The notes beneath the pieces were generated by a model. That model had not been told where the DNA came from and ran no database searches. It was given only the letters and a program-made list of their open reading frames with translations. This document shows, in pieces, positions 73 to 48,894 of a stretch of DNA of 64,000 nucleotides (positions within the stretch are counted from its first letter, which is position 1; each line of letters begins with the position of its first letter). Source of the DNA: an uncultured Pelagibacteraceae bacterium (lineage in GTDB: Bacteria; Pseudomonadota; Alphaproteobacteria; Pelagibacterales; Pelagibacteraceae); contig CABZPD010000003.1 of the NCBI GenBank assembly GCA_902527415.1, forward strand, positions 1 through 64,000, read 5' to 3'. Both the position numbers and the translations under genes were made by a program.

Positions 73-1532
73 TAAAATAATTTATCTAAAACCTTTGCTG
101 AAGAGAGAACACCTGGAACACCGGCCCCAGGATGTGTACCCGCACCAACAAAGTACAAACCATCATATATTTCAGATTTATTATGAAATCTAAAGTATGC
201 GGATTGTGTAAATTTAGGTTGAATAGAAAATCCTGATCCAAATTTTGTATTTAATTCTTTTTCAAAGTAATCAGGTGTTAGATAAAAATCTTCAACTATA
301 TTGTTCTTAAGATCTGGCATTAAGTCTTTTTCCATTTTTTCGATTACAAGATTTTTCATTTTCTCACCTTCAGTTTCCCAATTTATTTTTGACTGATTGT
401 TGGGGACAGGCACTAACACATAAAAACAATCATTTCCTTCTGGGGCCATAGTTTTATCGGTCGCTGTAGGTCTGTGAAGATAATAGCTGATATCATTATT
501 TAATTTTTTCTTATCAAATATGTCATCGAGATGTTCCTTATATTTATTTCCAAACTTTATTGTATGATGTTCAACATTCTCATAAATTTTTTTTGTTCCA
601 AAATAGTAAACAAATAAACCCATAGAATATTCCATTCGGTTTTTTTTCCAATTAAACAACATTGAATTCTCGTTGCTTTTGCTTAACATTTTCTCATAAA
701 ATGCAGGTGGATCTGCATTACAAACAACATTATCTGCACCAATTTCATTTTCATTATTTAATTTTACACCACTTATTTTATTATTTTTTGATATAATTTC
801 TGTTACTTCACTATTTTTTATTATTTCAATACCAACCTCATTCATTAACTTTTCAAAACCTTTAATTATATTTCCTGTCCCTCCAACTGAATAATGTATT
901 CCCCATTTTTTCTCTAAATAAAGAATTAAGCCATAAATTGAAGTGGTGGTAAAAGGGTTTCCCCCAACTAGTAAAGGATGCATGCTAAACATTCTTCTTA
1001 ATTTTTCATTTTTTATATAAGATGAAACAAGTGAGTAAACTGATTTATAACTTTTAAGTTTTAACAGAGCAGGCAATTGTTGCATCATTACGAAAGGTTT
1101 ATCAAATGGTACATCTGCAAGTTCTAAAAAACCTTTATCAAATATTTTTTTTGTAAAATTAACTAATTTTTCATATCCATTTACATCTTCTTTGCTAAGC
1201 TTCTCAATTTGGTCTTTCATCTCTATTTCGTTGCCTGAATAGTTAAATTTAGTTTTGTCCTCAAAAATAAACTGGTACCAAATTTTAAGTGGAGTTAGTT
1301 CTATATAATTTTTTGGATCTTTATTGAATAACTCGAACAATTCATTAATTAAGTAGGGTGCAGTAATTACTGTTGGTCCTGCATCATATATAAATCCATT
1401 TTTTTTAAAAACTCTAGCTCTACCACCTAGGTCTGGATGTTTTTCTATTAATTTTACGTTATGACCTTTTGCCTTAAGTCTTAGCGCTGCTGCGATCCCA
1501 CCAAATCCTGATCCAATGACTAAAGAGTTCAT
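72..1532 (-). CDS. crtI: Phytoene desaturase (CrtI type)
   Basis: This FAD-dependent desaturase and isomerase converts phytoene to lycopene at the membrane. The 486-residue product opens with a dinucleotide-binding motif (GSGFGGIAAALRL from about residue 7) followed by the acidic end of the second strand near residue 30. It ends with the CrtI signature YFVGAGTHPGAGVPGV at about 461-476, which closes the FAD site. Length matches bacterial CrtI. It is followed by crtB with a 1-base overlap and preceded by atpF after 39 bases with no obvious terminator, so it may be read from the ATP synthase transcript. The start ATG gives the Rossmann motif its usual position. A related carotenoid oxidoreductase is the only plausible alternative. 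Confidence 0.93.
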   Translation of the reverse strand: MNSLVIGSGFGGIAAALRLKAKGHNVKLIEKHPDLGGRARVFKKNGFIYDAGPTVITAPYLINELFELFNKDPKNYIELTPLKIWYQFIFEDKTKFNYSGNEIEMKDQIEKLSKEDVNGYEKLVNFTKKIFDKGFLELADVPFDKPFVMMQQLPALLKLKSYKSVYSLVSSYIKNEKLRRMFSMHPLLVGGNPFTTTSIYGLILYLEKKWGIHYSVGGTGNIIKGFEKLMNEVGIEIIKNSEVTEIISKNNKISGVKLNNENEIGADNVVCNADPPAFYEKMLSKSNENSMLFNWKKNRMEYSMGLFVYYFGTKKIYENVEHHTIKFGNKYKEHLDDIFDKKKLNNDISYYLHRPTATDKTMAPEGNDCFYVLVPVPNNQSKINWETEGEKMKNLVIEKMEKDLMPDLKNNIVEDFYLTPDYFEKELNTKFGSGFSIQPKFTQSAYFRFHNKSEIYDGLYFVGAGTHPGAGVPGVLSSAKVLDKLF

Positions 1533-1571
1533 TTTAATAATTTATAGCTTTTTTGAAAAATTGTAAGTGTA

Positions 1572-2069
1572 TTATGAGTTAATTTTTTTTAACTCTGCTT
1601 TGGTTTCATCTAAATTTTTTTGAAACACAGCATCTAATTTTGACTTGTCTACAGATGTAGTTATTATTTTTTTAACTGAGTCCACTGCAATTTTTATTGA
1701 TGCGTCCTTAATTTCTTTTAAAGCTGCTTCTTTAATCTGACTTATTTTATTTTCAGCTAAATTTTTTTTAATTTCTGATGATTTATGAAATTTATCATTC
1801 ATTTCAATTATTAATCTATCTGCATCTTTTTTAGCATTTTCAAGAATTTCATTACTAACAGATTGAGCTGTATCTAATTTTTTTTGTGAATTATCTAATA
1901 GTGTTTTTGCCTCGGTTCTTAATTTTTCACTTTCATCAATTTCATTTTTAATGTCAGATATCATTTTATCTAACATTTCAGAAATTTTTTGAGGAATTTT
2001 AAGGTAAATTAGCGCTCCAAAAAAAATAATAAATGATACGGCTACCCAAAATGTTGCATCAATTGCCAT
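1572..2069 (-). CDS. atpF: ATP synthase F0 subunit b
   Basis: This is the peripheral stalk subunit that ties the membrane a subunit to F1. One N-terminal membrane segment (about residues 5-24, starting MAIDATFWVAVSF) is followed by a long charged helix typical of b subunits; the product is 165 residues. I chose the ATG at 2069 because GGAG lies eight bases upstream and because the membrane segment then begins at once. An in-frame ATG at 2084 and codons up to 2108 would only add an unrelated tail. It overlaps the end of the b' gene by 11 bases. It is the last F0 gene; F1 genes are not in this window, as in other alphaproteobacteria where F0 and F1 operons are separate. Confidence 0.9.
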   Translation of the reverse strand: MAIDATFWVAVSFIIFFGALIYLKIPQKISEMLDKMISDIKNEIDESEKLRTEAKTLLDNSQKKLDTAQSVSNEILENAKKDADRLIIEMNDKFHKSSEIKKNLAENKISQIKEAALKEIKDASIKIAVDSVKKIITTSVDKSKLDAVFQKNLDETKAELKKINS

Positions 2070-2649
2070 AGTATTTATCTCCATTTCTTTTAGATAGATC
2101 GTCAACAATTGCAGATATACTACTATTATTTACTTCAGCTCCAATTAGTTTTTGCAGTAACTCAGATGAAGTCTCAATAGCAATTTTATTTATTTTATCT
2201 GGGGCATTTTTTCTTAATGCATCTATTTCTTTTTCAGCCTCAGCAATTTCATTATCAATTTGCTTATCAAGCACCTCTCTTTTTGCGCCAATGTCTTTTA
2301 GTGCTTTTTCTCTTGCTTGATTGAAAATACTATTAGCCTCAAGTTTGCTTTTAGATATAATTTCATCGTATTCTTTTAGTTTTGCATCACTACTTTCTCT
2401 TTGTTTCTCAGCAGCCTCAATATTTTCTAATATTTGAGATTTTCTCGATTCTAAGTTGTTACTAATTTTTGGTAGTATTAGTTTAGATAAAACTAAATAC
2501 ATAATACCAAAAGTAAGTATTAGCCAAAAAATTTGAGAAACCCAAAACTCTGGATTTAATTGAGGCATACCTCCGCTTTCAGCTGCAAAAGCTTCTTTAA
2601 TAAAAAAGAAGCTAAAAAATATTGACTGAAAATATATTTTTTTAACCAT
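2059..2649 (-). CDS. atpF': ATP synthase F0 subunit b'
   Basis: This is the second, diverged b-type stalk subunit found in photosynthetic bacteria and alphaproteobacteria, forming a b/b' heterodimer. The 196-residue product starts MVKKIYFQSIFF, then has a PQLNPEFWVSQIFWL segment entering a membrane helix near residues 37-55, then a long charged coiled coil. Start chosen at 2649: a possible upstream start at 2664 would overlap atpE, whereas 2649 lies four bases after the atpE stop. There is no Shine-Dalgarno sequence, so coupling to atpE translation is likely. The hydrophobic leader before residue 25 could be a cleaved signal or a second membrane anchor. Also named atpG or atpF2 in some genomes. 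Confidence 0.88.
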   Translation of the reverse strand: MVKKIYFQSIFFSFFFIKEAFAAESGGMPQLNPEFWVSQIFWLILTFGIMYLVLSKLILPKISNNLESRKSQILENIEAAEKQRESSDAKLKEYDEIISKSKLEANSIFNQAREKALKDIGAKREVLDKQIDNEIAEAEKEIDALRKNAPDKINKIAIETSSELLQKLIGAEVNNSSISAIVDDLSKRNGDKYYGN

Positions 2650-2653
2650 CAAT

Positions 2654-2881
2654 TTAAAACGCAAATAGAATGATTAACGCAACTACCAATCCGAATAATC
2701 CAGTCGCTTCTGCAAGTGCAAAACCTAAAAGCAAGTTAGGAAATTGTTTTTGTGCTGCAGATGGATTTCTCATTGCACCAGACAAATAATTTCCAAAAAT
2801 TATTCCGATACCAACACCGGCTCCAGCTAAAGCAATTGCTGCTAAACCAGCTCCGATCATTTTTGCTGCTTCTAATTCCAT
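2654..2881 (-). CDS. atpE: ATP synthase F0 subunit c
   Basis: This proteolipid forms the rotating ring of the ATP synthase. The 75 residues make two membrane helices around a polar loop (RNPSA near 38-42). The first helix carries the glycine repeat GAGVGIGIIFG (20-30) used for tight packing, and the second carries the proton-binding Glu58 in FALAEATGLF. It sits between atpB and the b' gene and is preceded by a perfect AGGAGG ribosome-binding site, which fits the need for many copies per complex. Confidence 0.96.
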   Translation of the reverse strand: MELEAAKMIGAGLAAIALAGAGVGIGIIFGNYLSGAMRNPSAAQKQFPNLLLGFALAEATGLFGLVVALIILFAF

Positions 2882-2886
2882 TATAT

Positions 2887-2892
2887 CCTCCT
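2887..2892 (-). promoter_or_regulatory. Perfect Shine-Dalgarno sequence of atpE
   Basis: Read on the minus strand the site is AGGAGG, five bases before the atpE ATG at 2881. Most genes in this window have weak or no Shine-Dalgarno sequence, so this one stands out. It matches the multi-copy stoichiometry of subunit c. Confidence 0.8.
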
Positions 2893-2898
2893 CTGTTA

Positions 2899-3633
2899 TT
2901 AATGGTGTAAATTTAATGCATCATTTAAATAGATGCAGGTTAAGATTGCAAAAACATAAGCTTGAAGAAAAGCAACTAAGATCTCCAAACCAGTTAACGC
3001 AACCGAAAAACTTAGTGGAAGCCACCCACCAACTATCCCAAGGCTAATTACAAAGCCTCCGAAAACTTTCATCATTGTATGACCAGCCATCATATTGGCA
3101 AATAATCTAACTGATAAACTAATAGGTCTACTTAAATAAGAAATAATTTCTATAACAACAATTAAAGGGAGTAATACTGCAGGCACTCCACTTGGAACAA
3201 ATAATTTTAAATACCCAAATCCATGTTTAATAAACCCAATTACAGTTACTCCAATAAATATAAATGCTGCGAGCACAAATGTTACAATGATATGACTGGT
3301 TACAGTGAAAGTATAAGGTATCATTCCAAACATGTTACAAAATAAAACAAACATGAATAGAGAAAATATAAATGCAAAGTATGGTTTGGCTTTTGATCCA
3401 GCTGTATCGCTAATCATTTTGGATACGAAGGTATAGCTAAGTTCTGCTAATAATTGAATTTTGTTTGGTAGTATTGAATTTTTTTTTGATCCTAAATTAA
3501 AGATTAACAAAATAGATATAGTACTTAAAATCATAAACAAACTTGCGTTCGTAAACGATATGTCGAATGCTCCAACTTTAATTTCAGGTCCAATTCTATA
3601 AACATCGAATTGGGACATAGGATTTGCTGCCAT
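2899..3633 (-). CDS. atpB: ATP synthase F0 subunit a
   Basis: This integral membrane subunit forms the two proton half-channels facing the c ring. The 244-residue protein has five to six hydrophobic segments. The essential arginine is Arg176 in SLSVRLFANMMAGH, the strongest family signature, and the C-terminal helix LEILVAFLQAYVFAIL (about 216-231) is also typical. It starts 9 bases after the atpI stop and ends 17 bases before atpE. Length is standard for the family. Confidence 0.96.
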   Translation of the reverse strand: MAANPMSQFDVYRIGPEIKVGAFDISFTNASLFMILSTISILLIFNLGSKKNSILPNKIQLLAELSYTFVSKMISDTAGSKAKPYFAFIFSLFMFVLFCNMFGMIPYTFTVTSHIIVTFVLAAFIFIGVTVIGFIKHGFGYLKLFVPSGVPAVLLPLIVVIEIISYLSRPISLSVRLFANMMAGHTMMKVFGGFVISLGIVGGWLPLSFSVALTGLEILVAFLQAYVFAILTCIYLNDALNLHH

Positions 3634-3642
3634 AAAACTTAT

Positions 3643-3918
3643 TTATTTTTGCATTTTTTTTGCGGATCTAATCACATTGGTTATTCCAGCAACTACACCA
3701 ACAAAAAAAAATATTAATATAAACCAGGGTTTAGTACCAAAGGTCTTGTCAAAAATAAACCCAATAATTGTCCCCACAGCCACTGCAGAAACAAGTTCTG
3801 TGCTCAATTTGAATGCGGTTCCTATAGGCGAGGGGTCATTCTTCTTATTGTAGAGATTTTTCTTTGAAATCTTGCTTTTTGCAATCTCTAAGCGAGTTTT
3901 GAAAGGGTCTTTTGGCAT
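3643..3918 (-). CDS. atpI: ATP synthase accessory protein I
   Basis: This small membrane protein helps assemble the c ring and may carry magnesium; it is not part of the mature enzyme. The 91 residues have a basic, soluble N-terminus and two hydrophobic helices (about 35-58 and 65-84) with a glycine-containing TIIGFIFDKTFGTKPW segment typical of the AtpI/AtpZ family. It heads the F0 genes and begins only 9 bases after the smc stop, so the F0 operon has no room for a promoter of its own outside smc. Confidence 0.85.
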   Translation of the reverse strand: MPKDPFKTRLEIAKSKISKKNLYNKKNDPSPIGTAFKLSTELVSAVAVGTIIGFIFDKTFGTKPWFILIFFFVGVVAGITNVIRSAKKMQK

Positions 3919-3927
3919 TTATATAGT

Positions 3928-6501
3928 TTAAGCAACCATACTCTCTGCTTTTTGTAAATCAACAGCCACAAGCTGACTAATTCCTTTTTGAGGCATAGTT
4001 ACCCCATATAGTCTATTCATTTTTGACATGGTTAAAGCATGATGAGTTACAATTATGAATTTAGTGTTGGTGATTTTAATTAGTTCCTCAAGTAAACTAC
4101 AAAATCTTGTTACGTTAGCATCGTCAAGCGGTGCATCAACCTCATCCAATACACATATAGGTGAAGGGTTTGTTAAAAATACTGCAAAGATTAATGATAG
4201 GGCAGTCAAAGCTTGCTCACCTCCAGATAACAAAGTTATAGATTGAAGTCTTTTTCCAGGAGGACTAACTAACATTTCTAAACCTGCTTCAAGTGGATCA
4301 TCAGAGTCCACTAATTCTAATTTGGCATTTCCACCATTGAAAAGTTTTGTATAAACTTCATTAAATTTTCTATTAACTTTTTCAAAAGCTTCAATCAATC
4401 TCTCTCTTCCTTTTTGATTAAGTTCACTGATGCTATCTTTCAGTTTCACGATAGCAGTAACAAGGTCAGCACGATCCTGTTCCATTTTTTTTATCTCTTC
4501 TTCATATTTACTTGTTTCTTCATCTGCTTTTAAATTTACAGATCCTAATTTTTCTCTTTCTTGTTTTTTCTTGTCTAAAGCATCTTCTTGATCAACTGGA
4601 TTTGGAAGCTCTTCTACTCCGTTTAAATTTGAATTTTCTAAAATATTATCTTCATTCAAATTTAACTCAGAACTAATTCTATCAAGGAGATCATTTTTTC
4701 TTTTTTGTAGGCCTTCAATTGTAGCTCCTGAGCTTGCTTTTCTTTCTCTGATTTGAATTGATTGTTCTTGAATTTCATTTAATTGCGTTCTTAACATTTC
4801 AATTTTTTGATCTGTTTCATCTATAATCGCTTCATTATCAATTTTTTCTTTATCTGAAATTCTTAAATTTTCTGAAATTTGACCTTTTCTCTCTGCCTGT
4901 GCTCTAGGTTGATTTTCTAAATCACTTAATTGTTTTGATAATTTCCCTTTTCTTTGTGTTAGTTCATTAACCATTTTTTCTGAGTTAGTTAATAAATTTT
5001 TCCAACTTTCAATTTCTGTTTCAATGGTTTTAATTCTTTCATTTCTTTTTATAGACTCATTTTTAATTGATTGATTTTTACTATATGCATCAGCATATTT
5101 TTCTTGGAGTAATTTTATATTTTCTGATTTTTCGCTAACTCCTAACAACTCACTTCTAGATCTCTCATTTTTTAAATCATTTAAAAAACTATCTAGCTCC
5201 ATATTACATCTATCTAGAAGTGTTACTGCTTGATTTATTTCGTTACTATCTATTAATTCCTTTACCCTTGATATAGTGTTTTTTACATTTCTTATTGGAC
5301 CAACACTTATATTTACAGTTTCTTCTGCTAAACTGTTTACAACTTCATCAACAGCTTTTTGTTCTTCTGTAAGTTTATTTTTTGCACTTTCTAACTCTTC
5401 ATTAGATAATTTTTCTGTTTCAAAATACTTCGAGTCTGTCTCAATTAATTCAGTTTTTTCTTCCTTTAATCTTTTTTCATTTGAGTTAGCGTCTATGATT
5501 ATCCCTTTTTCTCTCGTGATATCATCATCAAGTGTTTGAATTGATTTTTTGATGCTTTCTATCTCATCTTGAATTCTTGTATTTTCCTCATCTAAACTTT
5601 GAAGTTCTAAATTAAGTCTTTGTATCCTTGATAAATTTTCAATATTTTTCTCTCTCAATGGATTTACTTTATCTGTAAAAGTTTTAATTGAGTTTTCCAA
5701 TTCAGATATTTTGTTATTAAATCCTTCTACTTCTCCTTCTGCCTCAGTATTAATTTCATTTTCTATTCTAATTTCTTTATCTATTTCTAATAATTTTAAA
5801 TAATATAAACCTGCTTCAATTTTTTTAATTTGATCTGAAATTAGTTTGTATTTTGTTGCCTCTTCAGCTTGTTTTTGAAGATTTGCTAATTGTTTCTCTT
5901 GCTGCCTTCTTAGTTCATCCGCTCTTTTTAGATTATTTTCAGCTGCACCTAATCTTAATTCAGCCTCATGTCTTCTAACGTGTAAACCAGATATTCCTGC
6001 AGCTTCTTCTAAAATAGCCCTTCTATCTGTTGGTTTTGCAGTTACTAATGCACCTATTCTTCCTTGACTAATCATAGATGGAGAGTGCGCACCAGTCGAA
6101 AGATCTGCAAAAAACATTTGAGCATCTCTTGCTCTTACTTCTTTATCATTAATATAAAATTTAGATCCTTTATCTTTTTCTATTTTTCTTCTAACTTGTA
6201 TTTGCTCTAATTCACGGTATTGGATAGGGCCTTCTTTATCTTTGTTTTCAACTTCGATTGATACTTCTGCAATATTTTTTGATGCTTTGTTAGATGTCCC
6301 TGAAAATATAACATCTTCCATACCAGATCCACGCATACTTTTTGCTGAGGTCTCTCCCATTACCCATCTTAAAGATTCTACAATGTTAGATTTTCCACAG
6401 CCGTTAGGACCCACTATACCCGTAAGACCATCCTCAATTAAGAAGTTGGTTTTTTCAGCAAAAGATTTAAATCCGTTTAATTGGATTTTTTTAAACTCCA
6501 T
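3928..6501 (-). CDS. smc: Chromosome segregation ATPase SMC, short and apparently hinge-less
   Basis: SMC proteins compact and align sister chromosomes. The head is complete: Walker A GPNGCGKSN (31-39), signature LLSGGEQALTALSL (757-770) and Walker B ICVLDEVDAPLDD (782-794). Two charged coiled-coil arms run from about 170-395 and 450-690. At 857 residues it is far shorter than the usual 1100-1200. The middle (about 395-450) is a short helical stretch, NISVGPIRNVKNTI onward, without the globular, glycine-containing hinge normally found there. The gene follows the DsbA-like gene by 8 bases and precedes atpI by 9, so all three are probably co-transcribed. The head identity is certain; absence of the hinge is my reading and needs a structure model. 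Confidence 0.93.
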   Translation of the reverse strand: MEFKKIQLNGFKSFAEKTNFLIEDGLTGIVGPNGCGKSNIVESLRWVMGETSAKSMRGSGMEDVIFSGTSNKASKNIAEVSIEVENKDKEGPIQYRELEQIQVRRKIEKDKGSKFYINDKEVRARDAQMFFADLSTGAHSPSMISQGRIGALVTAKPTDRRAILEEAAGISGLHVRRHEAELRLGAAENNLKRADELRRQQEKQLANLQKQAEEATKYKLISDQIKKIEAGLYYLKLLEIDKEIRIENEINTEAEGEVEGFNNKISELENSIKTFTDKVNPLREKNIENLSRIQRLNLELQSLDEENTRIQDEIESIKKSIQTLDDDITREKGIIIDANSNEKRLKEEKTELIETDSKYFETEKLSNEELESAKNKLTEEQKAVDEVVNSLAEETVNISVGPIRNVKNTISRVKELIDSNEINQAVTLLDRCNMELDSFLNDLKNERSRSELLGVSEKSENIKLLQEKYADAYSKNQSIKNESIKRNERIKTIETEIESWKNLLTNSEKMVNELTQRKGKLSKQLSDLENQPRAQAERKGQISENLRISDKEKIDNEAIIDETDQKIEMLRTQLNEIQEQSIQIRERKASSGATIEGLQKRKNDLLDRISSELNLNEDNILENSNLNGVEELPNPVDQEDALDKKKQEREKLGSVNLKADEETSKYEEEIKKMEQDRADLVTAIVKLKDSISELNQKGRERLIEAFEKVNRKFNEVYTKLFNGGNAKLELVDSDDPLEAGLEMLVSPPGKRLQSITLLSGGEQALTALSLIFAVFLTNPSPICVLDEVDAPLDDANVTRFCSLLEELIKITNTKFIIVTHHALTMSKMNRLYGVTMPQKGISQLVAVDLQKAESMVA

Positions 6502-44766: not shown

Positions 44767-45228
44767 ATGTCATTAAAACAGACCATCGAAAACGAATATA
44801 AAAATGCTTTAAAATCGAAAGATAAAAATAAAATATCAACCTATAGGTTAATATTATCTTCAATTAAGGATTTGGATATTGTTAACAGATCGGGGCCTAA
44901 CAAAAAAGAAACTGATGATGAGGACATAAAGAAACTTTTAAAAAAAATGGTTAAACAACGAGCCGAATCGATCGATATTTATAAAAAAAATAATAGAACC
45001 GATCTTTTAGAGGTTGAGCAAAATGAATATGATATTTTAACAAGTTTTTTACCCAAACAGCTTAGCGAAGAAGAAACTAAGAAAATTTGCGCAGATGTTA
45101 TTTCGAAAATTGGAGCAAATTCATTAAAAGATATGGGAAAAGTTATGGGTGAAATCAAAAAAACTTATGCAGACGAAATTGATTTTTCAAAAGCAGGATC
45201 ATTGATTAAAGAATTATTGAATAAATAA
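44767..45228 (+). CDS. GatB/YqeY domain protein
   Basis: A 153-residue stand-alone version of the tRNA-binding domain found at the end of GatB. It has the YqeY pattern LKQTIENEYKNALKSKDK, RLILSSIKDLDI, and the C-terminal GANSLKDMGKVMGEIKK stretch that resembles the GatB tail. It is thought to bind tRNA, but its role is not settled. Placed between carA and dnaG as in many alphaproteobacteria, its stop overlaps the dnaG start by one base (TAATG). Confidence 0.9.
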   Translation: MSLKQTIENEYKNALKSKDKNKISTYRLILSSIKDLDIVNRSGPNKKETDDEDIKKLLKKMVKQRAESIDIYKKNNRTDLLEVEQNEYDILTSFLPKQLSEEETKKICADVISKIGANSLKDMGKVMGEIKKTYADEIDFSKAGSLIKELLNK

Positions 45229-47003
45229 TGAAATACCCAAAAGAGTATCTTGATGAAATTAAAAATAGGTTAAAAGTTTCAACAGTAGTATCAAAAACTG
45301 TTTCATTAAAAAAAAGAGGTAAAGAATTTGTGGGTTTGTCACCATTCAAAAATGAAAAAACACCTTCCTTTACCGTGAATGATGAAAAAGAATTTTATCA
45401 TTGTTTTGCAACTTCTGAACATGGCAATATCTTTGATTTTGTAATGAAAACTCAAAATTTAAAATTTGGAGAGTCAGTTAAATACTTGGCTCAATTAGCG
45501 GGAATGCAGCCATATATGTTTTCAAAACAAGATGAAGAAAGAGAGAAAAAATGGAATGAATACAAATCTATTTTTAGTAATTATGTGGATTTTTATCACA
45601 ATGAACTTTTAAAAAATGAAAATTGTTCGATTGCTAGAGATTATTTAAAAAATAGATCACTAGGCAAAGATGAAGTAAAAAAATTTAAAATAGGATACAT
45701 AGAAAAAAATCCAAATTTTTTTGAAAAATTAAAACAAGATTATAGTGAACAAACTTTAGTCGAGACCGGTTTATTCTATTTAGATGAGAAAAAAAAAATT
45801 TTTGTCGAAAGATTTAGAGGTCGATTAATATTTCCAATCAATAATATTTCAGGTCAGCCAATAGCACTAGGTGGAAGAATAATTGAAAATTTAGATTACT
45901 TAGCTAAATATATAAATTCACCTGAAACAAACTTTTTTAAAAAAGGATCAAATTTATATAATTTAGATTTAGCAAGAAAACTTTCTAATAAAGTTGATCA
46001 TATTTATCTAGTTGAGGGGTACATGGATGTAGTAGGTCTAAGTAAAAATGGAATAGATAATGCGGTAGCAAATCTTGGTACGTCTTTAACCGACAAGCAA
46101 ATTTTGACTTTAAACCAATTTTTTGATGACATAATAATATGTTTTGATGGTGACGAAAGTGGATATAAAGCTGCTGTTAGAGCTGCTGAAAATTCAATAA
46201 AGGAACTAAAACCTGAAAAAGAAATTTCATTTTTGTTTCTTCCAGATAAAGAAGATCCAGATAGCTATGTAAATAAAAATGGCAAGGCTGATTTTGTAGA
46301 TTTTACAAAGCAGACCAAATTATCAATTCATCAATTTATTTTTAGTCATTACAAAAAACAAACTAAAAATAATCCATCATCGATGGCTATTTTTGAGAAA
46401 AAACTAAGAGAAATTGCAAATACAATAAAAGATGATTTCATAAAAAAATATGTTTTAGAATATTTTTTAGAAAAAATTTCTGAGTTAACACCATATTCTA
46501 ATCAAAATAATAAAAAATTTTATTCAAAGAAAATAAAATCTTTAGAGAGTACAAAAAAATATTTTAAAGAAAGTCAGTCTTTGACTGGAGTGGAATTAAA
46601 AGAGTTTTCTTTATTATACTTGGTGATAAATAACCTAGATTTGTTGCAAGCAAATATTCATCTGATTGAAAATATTAAATTATTTACTGAGTTTAATAAA
46701 AAAATATTTGAAATGATTGTTGAAAAATTAAAATCTGGTTCACAAATTACAATTGAAGATCTTAATTTGGATATTGAATTAATAGAAAAAATAAACAAAT
46801 TTGCTCCAATCAAACATATTCTAAAAAATCAATCTGAGGATGATCAAAAAATTATCGAATTATTAGAGGACATCTCTAGAGATTTGATGAATTATGATCT
46901 TGAGTTCAGAATCCAGGAATTAGAATCGAAGTTTTCTGTGGATATGAGCGAGTCCACATTTAATGAGTTAAAAGAGCTCAAAAAAAAGCAGAATCTCAAT
47001 TAA
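45228..47003 (+). CDS. dnaG: DNA primase with degenerate zinc-binding motif
   Basis: DnaG makes RNA primers at the replication fork. The 591 residues have the N-terminal CHC2-type domain (1-100), the RNA polymerase/TOPRIM core (about 100-380) with LVEGYMDVVGL and the acidic FDGDESGYKAA motif, and a divergent C-terminal helicase-interacting domain. In E. coli the zinc ligands are Cys40, His43, Cys61, Cys64; here the matching residues are Ser38, Lys41, Cys59 and Thr62 (LSPFKNEKTPSF and YHCFATSEHGN). The surrounding fold residues are kept, so zinc binding is probably lost while the domain remains. The gene overlaps yqeY by one base and lies 67 bases before rpoD. Confidence 0.96.
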   Translation: MKYPKEYLDEIKNRLKVSTVVSKTVSLKKRGKEFVGLSPFKNEKTPSFTVNDEKEFYHCFATSEHGNIFDFVMKTQNLKFGESVKYLAQLAGMQPYMFSKQDEEREKKWNEYKSIFSNYVDFYHNELLKNENCSIARDYLKNRSLGKDEVKKFKIGYIEKNPNFFEKLKQDYSEQTLVETGLFYLDEKKKIFVERFRGRLIFPINNISGQPIALGGRIIENLDYLAKYINSPETNFFKKGSNLYNLDLARKLSNKVDHIYLVEGYMDVVGLSKNGIDNAVANLGTSLTDKQILTLNQFFDDIIICFDGDESGYKAAVRAAENSIKELKPEKEISFLFLPDKEDPDSYVNKNGKADFVDFTKQTKLSIHQFIFSHYKKQTKNNPSSMAIFEKKLREIANTIKDDFIKKYVLEYFLEKISELTPYSNQNNKKFYSKKIKSLESTKKYFKESQSLTGVELKEFSLLYLVINNLDLLQANIHLIENIKLFTEFNKKIFEMIVEKLKSGSQITIEDLNLDIELIEKINKFAPIKHILKNQSEDDQKIIELLEDISRDLMNYDLEFRIQELESKFSVDMSESTFNELKELKKKQNLN

Positions 47004-47070: not shown

Positions 47071-48894
47071 GTGGAAAGAATTATTACAAAATCATTTGCT
47101 AGACTTATGGGTCGAGGAACCCATAGAGGCTTTATTACCTATGAAGAGTTAAGCAAATCTCTTGGTAAAAGAAATTTATCTGATGAAAATCTATCTCAAG
47201 CTTTTATTCATATTTTAGATGAAAATATTACATTAGTTGAAAAAAAATCTGATTTTAAAATTCTCAGAAAAAAAGAAAACTCAAATAAAGAAGAAGGTAA
47301 GACAATTGAAAAAAGTGACGACCCTATAAGAATGTATTTACGTGAAATGGGAGGGGTTGAGTTACTTTCAAGAGAAGGTGAAATTGCGATTGCAAAAAGA
47401 ATTGAAGCTGGAAAAGACGTAATGCTTATTGCTCTATCTCAGAGTCCAATTACAGCAAGTCAGTTTTTTGAATGGAACAATCAATTACAAAAAGATGAAA
47501 TCTTAGTAAGAGAAATAATTGATATAGATACTAATTATATGGAAGATGAGACCACTGGACCGAGTGCGAAACAAAAAAATGCAGGAGAAACAGATAAAGA
47601 TGAAGTTGCCTCAGATGAAGAAGATGACTTTAATCCTACTCTTGCTGCAATGGAATCAGAAATTAAACCAAAAGTATTAAAAACAGTAAATACACTTACA
47701 AAGGAATACAATAAACTAATAAAATATCAAAAAGAGAAATTAAATTGTGTTTTAAACTCACAAAATTTTTCGTCAGCAAAAGAAAAGGGATATGAAAAAG
47801 TTGTCAATGATATTCTAGAAAATATTAAATCTCTTCAGTTATCTCCATCTGTTTTAGAGGAACTAGTGCAAAAACATTATTTAGAAAACAAAAAAATTAT
47901 TTCTTTAGAGGGCAATCTTTTAAGACTTGCAATGGATCATAAAATATCAAGAAATGAGTTTATTAAGTTTTATATCGGTAATGAAATTAATCCAAATTTG
48001 AAAAAATTTTTAGATACTAATCTTGTTTGGAAACAATTTTTTACGAAAAATAGAGAGGAATTTAAGAATATAAGAGAAAGACTGATAGAAACTAGTCACA
48101 AGTTAGGTATTTCGGTAACAGACTTTAAAAAATTAGTAAGCAGAGTTCAAAAAGGAGAAAAAGAATCAAGAATAGCTAAAAAAGAAATGGTTGAGGCTAA
48201 TCTTAGACTAGTAATTTCAATTGCAAAAAAATATACAAATAGAGGTTTGCAATTTTTAGACTTAATTCAAGAGGGAAATATTGGGTTGATGAAAGCTGTA
48301 GATAAATTTGAATATAGGAGAGGTTATAAATTTTCGACTTATGCTACTTGGTGGATAAGACAGGCAATTACAAGATCTATTGCGGATCAAGCAAGAACAA
48401 TAAGAATTCCTGTGCACATGATTGAAACAATAAATAAAATTGTTCGTACGCAAAGATTGATTCTGAGTGAGTTTGGCAGAGAGGCGACTCCTGAAGAACT
48501 AGCGCAAAAACTTAGAATGCCATTAGATAAAGTAAGAAAAGTTTTAAAGATTTCAAAAGAACCTGTGTCTTTAGAAAAACCAGTTGGTGATGAAGAGGAT
48601 AGCAGTTTAGGAGATTTTATAGAAGACACTAAAGCTTTAGCTCCATTGGAACAGGCAATCAAATCTAATCTTGGAGAAGCAACAACTAAAATTCTATCAA
48701 CCCTTACTCCTAGAGAGGAAAGAGTTTTAAGAATGAGATTTGGTGTCGGCATGAATACAGATCATACTTTAGAGGAAGTTGGTTTGCAGTTTTCTGTCAC
48801 AAGAGAAAGAATTAGACAAATTGAAGCTAAAGCACTTAGAAAATTAAAGCATCCTAGCAGATCTAAACAATTAAAAAGTTTTTTAGAGAGTTAA
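47071..48894 (+). CDS. rpoD: RNA polymerase primary sigma factor RpoD
   Basis: Housekeeping sigma-70 of 607 residues. Regions in order: an acidic N-terminus (1.1), region 1.2 at [22 protein letters not shown], a variable non-conserved stretch (about 170-340), region 2 with [29 protein letters not shown] and the -10 reading segment [14 protein letters not shown], region 3, and region 4.2 with [17 protein letters not shown] near the end. It starts with GTG. The end of the gene lies only 4 bases before tRNA-Val. The yqeY-dnaG-rpoD order is the macromolecular synthesis cluster without rpsU. Confidence 0.97.

Follow-up and report, generated by a model that had tools for sequence, protein, structure and literature searches.

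A recurrent DNA primase variant, found throughout the Pelagibacterales read and beyond, whose N-terminal ribbon has lost its zinc ligands

The DNA primase gene (dnaG) in the window, by which the whole analysed stretch of 64,000 nucleotides is meant, encodes a protein in which three of the four zinc ligands of the N-terminal ribbon have been replaced by other residues. We consider it likely that this is a housekeeping primase with a folded, working and zinc-free N-terminal ribbon. As far as can be judged from sequence, it is a genuine zinc-free form of an essential enzyme, one that recurs across lineages; its loss of ligands is not an error, and SAR11 shares it with other groups. The gene, its domains and its downstream neighbour are the following:

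45228..47003, + strand: dnaG, DNA primase, 591 aa (TIGR01391, 393.7 bits; matches to PF01807, PF08275 and Toprim)
45228..45521, + strand: N-terminal ribbon domain, residues 1-98, zinc ligands lost (structure model on 1d0q_A: Z 16.7, rmsd 1.3 A, 98 residues aligned, 37% identity)
45540..46487, + strand: RNA polymerase (Toprim) domain, residues 105-420 (conserved acidic E263, D267, D307, D309, D343 and D345; E. coli 3b39_A, Z 36.4)
46593..47000, + strand: C-terminal helicase/SSB-binding domain, residues 456-591 (9eco_G, Z 9.5 over 457-591; 6cbr_A, Z 9.3 over 456-591)
47071..48894, + strand: rpoD, directly downstream of dnaG (NF004208, 779.2 bits)

That this dnaG is the housekeeping primase is seen from its TIGR01391 match, which lies above the curated cut-off in a profile search (393.7 against 283.6 bits), from its match to the CHC2 zinc ribbon family PF01807 (101.6 against a cut-off of 24.9 bits), and from rpoD adjoining it on the 3' side. 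Its PF01807 match is the sole one in the draft genome to which the window belongs (75.5% complete), and four single-contig relatives (G255, G341, G152 and G415) have exactly one such match each; with one match per genome, the lost-type DnaG is not a spare copy. Among 54 lost-type proteins the Toprim residues E263 and D307 were invariant, and D267, D309, D343 and D345 were found in at least 90%; we take all six to have catalytic roles. The C-terminal domain of the window protein gave no Pfam match at E 0.001 and was seen in the predicted fold. Upstream, a 153-aa frame (window 44767-45228) overlaps the dnaG start by one base; it had no NCBIfam match and is presumably YqeY-like.

The first-pass annotation had assigned Ser38, Lys41, Cys59 and Thr62 to the E. 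coli ligand positions Cys40, His43, Cys61 and Cys64, with unchanged spacing and intact neighbours (NEKTPSF and YHCF), and had called the loss a substitution and not a frameshift. Direct reading bears out each of these points: the C-H-C-C set is absent and S-K-C-T stands in its place, the alignment to E. coli K-12 DnaG (NC_000913.3), used as ligand reference, is free of gaps from the first to the last ligand, both neighbouring motifs are present, and the four codons are read in one open frame of 591 aa, the span 45339-45413 running exactly from codon 38 to codon 62. Two further residues belong to the coupled change, so that six positions are listed here, with the residues found in 32 lost-type and 151 kept-type rows:

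45339..45341, + strand: Ser38 (TCA) for E. coli Cys40; Ser in 32/32 lost-type rows
45348..45350, + strand: Lys41 (AAA) for E. coli His43; lost-type rows K10 N9 T6 Q4 S3
45402..45404, + strand: Cys59 (TGT) for E. coli Cys61, the sole ligand kept; lost-type rows C29 D3
45408..45410, + strand: Ala61 for knuckle Gly63, part of the coupled change; G in 150/151 kept rows, lost rows S28 A4
45411..45413, + strand: Thr62 (ACT) for E. coli Cys64; lost-type rows S20 T12
45417..45419, + strand: Glu64 for E. coli Ala66, part of the coupled change; A in 116/151 kept rows, lost rows E16 K13

Ligands present in near relatives would have pointed to a sequencing error, as the annotation had pointed out, and the relatives lack them. 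All 29 DnaG loci read from the same genus carry the same loss (the genus search matched 51 of 61 genomes and left 10 without a match, and part of the matches were read), as do all 19 further Pelagibacterales loci, from two families (99 of 117 genomes matched in the order search and 18 without; a twentieth fetched region was a weak second match and not DnaG). Since the loss is shared by both sets, a sequencing error is excluded.

With four genomes from the class search included, the lost type was found in 53 of 53 Pelagibacterales genomes, and it was also found in 52 of 222 alphaproteobacterial genomes outside the order. In the class search 15 of 386 genomes had no match and part of the matching genomes were read; the first 30 loci of these searches were the best matches and are biased for that reason, and the others were added mostly at one per family. 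Pooled, the 275 alphaproteobacterial genomes comprise 169 with C-H-C-C, 105 of lost type (S-x-[C/D]-[S/T]) and one split by a probable intein. Among 163 family codes, 38 of them with at least two genomes read, 137 showed only the kept type, 24 only the lost type, one (f108) both, and one (f82) the kept type plus the intein row. On mapping of the ligands across the class, as had been proposed, every Pelagibacterales genome read has lost them, and the loss is not specific to SAR11. The description of the zinc ribbon as near-universal was too strong, with loss in at least one genome of 25 of the 163 alphaproteobacterial families and in other phyla.

The change is all or none, and the variation is not scattered. 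In a comparison by position that took one row for each family and genus read, 183 rows from Alphaproteobacteria in all, 151 have C/H/C/C, invariant at the four ligands (positions as in E. coli), with Gly63 in 150 of them; the other 32 have Ser40, no His43, Cys or Asp at 61 and Ser or Thr at 64. At residue 66 Ala is found in 116 of the 151 kept rows, and Glu or Lys in 29 of the 32 lost rows. No partial loss, with two or three ligands kept, was seen in the 183 rows or in the 275 genomes. One apparent partial state (CHCA, locus L241, G141:C19:1800-6200, ORF 1067-4045) was not counted as an intermediate because an insertion carrying a LAGLIDADG domain interrupts its ribbon; it is a 993-aa alphaproteobacterial DnaG with about 300 aa inserted beside the Cys61 position, likely an intein sitting at a zinc ligand. 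The pattern raises the question of how four to six sites can switch together, repeatedly, in an essential enzyme.

A scan of named records with a pattern that fixed only positions 40-50 (a TCN codon for Ser at 40, and any residue but His at 43) returned at least 120 stretches, and because it is bound to that pattern and to this number it indicates occurrence and not frequency. After 28 of 120 loci that were short, cut off or perhaps mobile-element proteins had been left out, 92 DnaGs with at least 450 aa read were kept, of which 70 are Alphaproteobacteria by NCBI rank. The pattern had left positions 63, 64 and 66 free, so the coupling seen there is informative: Ser or Ala at 63 and Ser or Thr at 64 in 92/92, and Lys, Glu or Arg at 66 in 88/92. 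The alphaproteobacterial matches listed include Afipia, Algimonas, Alsobacter, Ancylobacter, Brevundimonas, Caulobacter, Filomicrobium, Hyphomicrobium, Methylobacterium, Microvirga, Parvibaculum, Phenylobacterium, Pseudolabrys, Rhodopseudomonas and Robiginitomaculum. Outside the class, the matches listed (at least 450 aa) include Nevskia, Corynebacterium, Mucilaginibacter, Chlorobiaceae, Bacteroidia, Flavobacteriales, Patescibacteria and Saccharibacteria, several of these records being metagenome-assembled. All 28 genomes of other classes that were read had C-H-C-C, these being the best matches to a Nevskia ribbon and not a random draw.

Several single records deserve mention in their own right. 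A record named Marinimicrobia (L252) carries a lost-type ribbon that resembles alphaproteobacterial ones, pointing to transfer or to a wrongly binned contig. Four CHC2-like ribbon proteins without ligands (L260, L266, L344 and L354, reading SRDA, SRDD, SRDE and SKDS) were short or cut off and are perhaps mobile-element primases. In other classes of the phylum, three genomes have primase frames of roughly double the usual length, at 1118 to 1248 aa (G578:C11, G699:C13 and G706:C11); the first of them (L383) has ordinary DnaG domains in the 500 codons read.

The altered ribbon is in use and under strong selection. Over 29 same-genus sequences, dN/dS was 0.050 for the ribbon (residues 5-98) and 0.018 for its core (36-68), compared to 0.111 for the polymerase domain and 0.262 for the C-terminal domain (simple pairwise Nei-Gojobori estimates, medians over pairs with dS 0.1-2). 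The ribbon has a mean identity of 90% within the genus, where no other part of DnaG is as well conserved. The annotation had also offered an altered template recognition as a possibility; flanking residues are as conserved in the lost rows as in the kept rows (E45, P48, S49, F50 and G68 in 32/32, K56 in 31/32), and G31, S38, P39, F40, E43, P46, S47, F48 and G66 were invariant over the 54 lost-type proteins, the invariance from S38 to F48 being partly set by the scan pattern. A ribbon that is decaying and out of use, as the disappearance of three of four ligands might suggest, is extremely improbable in view of these invariant residues and of dN/dS values that are the lowest in the protein within the genus.

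The ribbon fold is predicted to be kept. The structure model of the window protein, which was also searched with Foldseek, has a mean pLDDT of 90.3 (91-96 for residues 31-70), and its ribbon (1-98) superposes on the zinc-bound Bacillus ribbon 1d0q_A with an rmsd of 1.3 A (Z 16.7); for the predicted middle part the match is E. coli primase (3b39_A, Z 36.4), and for the end it is the helicase-binding domain of that species (9eco_G, Z 9.5). A tendency toward the family fold is to be expected in any case, because the modelling program had been trained on known structures and worked from an alignment of lost-type homologues.

How a ribbon of this kind could work may be pictured as follows. In the window protein both zinc knuckles, C-P-F-H and C-F-G-C, have been replaced together by the polar S-P-F-K and C-F-A-T (elsewhere the replacements are mostly S-P-F-[KNTQS] and [CD]-F-[SA]-[ST]), and the beta-sheet and the hydrophobic core would keep the fold. 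Hydrogen bonds among Ser38, Lys41, Cys59 and Thr62 would take the place of zinc, and Lys41 possibly substitutes for the positive charge of the metal. The domain would then carry out the tasks of the zinc form, namely template binding, help in the choice of the start site and handing on of the primer. We infer all three elements of this picture: the absence of bound zinc, the polar cluster and the retained priming function. The same coordinated swap occurs in many unrelated bacteria, and for that reason the zinc that is thought to be needed for the start of priming seems replaceable.

Work on other primases counts partly against this explanation. In a study of Clostridium difficile primase, the zinc ribbon is called essential to primase function, and a lysine beside the ribbon is described as setting the trinucleotide preference (PMC5204125). 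A review describes the three cysteines and one histidine of the ribbon as highly conserved, the domain as mediating sequence recognition and zinc as part of start-site reading in bacterial primase, with the precise role of the zinc motif still to be resolved; it also reports that T7 primase without its zinc-binding domain produces random dinucleotides, a further point against (PMC6163395). Among the matches listed, no open-access title or abstract opening concerned a DnaG without zinc ligands, and subscription literature lay mostly outside this scope, which gives a weak indication that such a DnaG is new; no metal, structure or priming measurement on a lost-type DnaG was found in the searchable literature.

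Zinc or another ion could instead be held at a different site, formed by His58, Cys59, His65 and Glu64 or by the new polar quartet. This is conceivable because Cys59, His58 and His65 remain, and His60 and His67 (E. coli numbers) are each present in 30 of 32 lost rows compared to 125 and 109 of 151 kept rows, a comparison in which kinship is uncontrolled. We nevertheless regard such a site as rather unlikely, as the lost type of one family (f139) has F-K-D-F and that of Chlorobium Y-K-C-F, both with Gly at 67, and Lys, which is common at position 43 in lost-type DnaGs, is a poor metal ligand.

The first-pass annotation had suggested that the loss might spare zinc in a cell living where zinc is scarce; for SAR11 this would mean that the metal was dropped because of zinc-poor ocean water. 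One observation fits: each of the six Pelagibacterales genomes read has a zinc-free form of the ribosomal protein bL36 (L415-L420), with at most one cysteine and so without the usual zinc ligands. The rest weakens the suggestion to the point where we hold it to be distinctly improbable. The loss is found in the 52 of 222 alphaproteobacterial genomes outside the order and, among the matches listed, in Caulobacter, Methylobacterium and Corynebacterium, and the named groups are not known to favour places poor in zinc. Among 30 genomes (20 with lost-type and 10 with kept-type DnaG), LigA keeps its four cysteines in 30/30 (six of them Pelagibacterales) and RecR in 28/28 where it was found (five Pelagibacterales), RecR not having been found in the window's draft or in one other genome (G082). 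A general loss of zinc fingers had been considered, as the finger models PF03119 and PF02132 matched in only 2/6 and 1/6 Pelagibacterales genomes, and was dropped because LigA and RecR keep four cysteines on reading. In Pelagibacteraceae the fingers of RecR (L440, L442, L445 and L447) and LigA (L413, L457, L467, L470 and L471) have their four cysteines with altered spacing or an insertion, and for this reason the Pfam models miss most of them.

As regards origins, trees of the protein body behind the ribbon, built from rows with at least 420 aa counted from the ribbon start, show 17 label changes both in FastTree (191 rows; nine forced by well-supported branches) and in IQ-TREE (82 rows; four forced), the smaller tree having been made by dropping by hand 36 long-branched or early-branching families, all of kept type, and thinning the rest, including 17 lost-type rows. 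A single loss in the class is rejected for the body (log-likelihood of a clade of lost rows 266 lower, AU p 1.57e-05). When the six coupled columns are taken out and the ribbon is tested by itself, the log-likelihood of a single lost clade is 10 lower (p 0.398), on 94 columns and therefore with weak power. Since the body trees reject a single origin and the ribbon trees do not, repeated conversion and ribbon exchange are both possible. Under a mixture model the ribbon tree has 9 changes, where three body blocks of the same length have 18 to 21; under a simpler model it has 6, where six such blocks have 17 to 22. By identity, the ribbon was nearest to a lost row of another family in 27 of 32 lost rows (four were nearest to kept rows and one was tied; one truncated row was omitted), and the body in 18 of 32. 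This disagreement between ribbon and body means that other ribbon sites adapt with the switch, that ribbons moved between genes, or both.

Some losses look as if they had been made in place, judging from the nearest sequences: of the best matches to the lost ribbon of Nevskia among 249 genomes, 28 of the 30 loci read, including the best 25, have C-H-C-C, and the lost ribbon of family f28 is nearer to a kept ribbon (0.79) than to a lost one (0.70). Exchange is suggested by the mixed family f108, whose lost row (L078, G350:C298) has a body nearest to its kept kin and a ribbon nearer to the lost type of f117 (identity 0.79, against 0.67-0.68 to its kin and 0.73 to any kept row). This gene is possibly a mosaic produced by transfer; the genome is a draft of 420 contigs with 4% contamination, so a foreign piece in it is also possible. 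More broadly, the zinc-free ribbon might be a spreading module of few origins, carried from the dnaG of one lineage to that of another through recombination at the gene's 5' end, perhaps together with a different choice of priming site. We hold this tentatively, as a doubtful reading; if true, it would make an essential replication enzyme a mosaic that swaps a zinc-dependent for a zinc-independent start-site reader. The E. coli and other-class rows suggest that C-H-C-C is older than the lost type, the change counts themselves being blind to the direction of gain or loss. A placement of SAR11 by the shared loss was also considered and dropped, because its long branch lies among rows of odd composition and the trait switches state too often.

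Whatever its origins, a primase with a working zinc-free ribbon would matter for the study of priming. If priming does without zinc in many bacteria, including a highly abundant marine group and the family to which Caulobacter, a model for the cell cycle, belongs, natural pairs of zinc-free and zinc-bound enzymes exist, and these could part the role of zinc in folding from its role in template reading.

Compared to known systems, the window DnaG shares with the CHC2-ribbon DnaGs of E. coli, Bacillus stearothermophilus (1D0Q) and Aquifex (2AU3) the domain order, the spacing, the predicted fold, the E-K-T-P-S-F motif, the catalytic Toprim residues and the C-terminal domain, but unlike them it lacks three of the four zinc ligands and is changed at knuckle Gly63 and at Ala66. 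In the keeping of a zinc-binding protein without its ligands it resembles the zinc-free (C-minus) ribosomal proteins such as bL36. C-minus ribosomal proteins are in many cases second copies that are turned on when zinc runs short, whereas here the sole DnaG found in the cell is changed, and this in many lineages. A third likeness is to the mitochondrial helicase Twinkle, whose primase half is degenerate and which is also a DnaG/gp4 relative with a diverged N-terminal part. Twinkle has lost primase activity (PMC7231222); the window DnaG, in contrast, has intact catalytic residues and a ribbon under strong selection.
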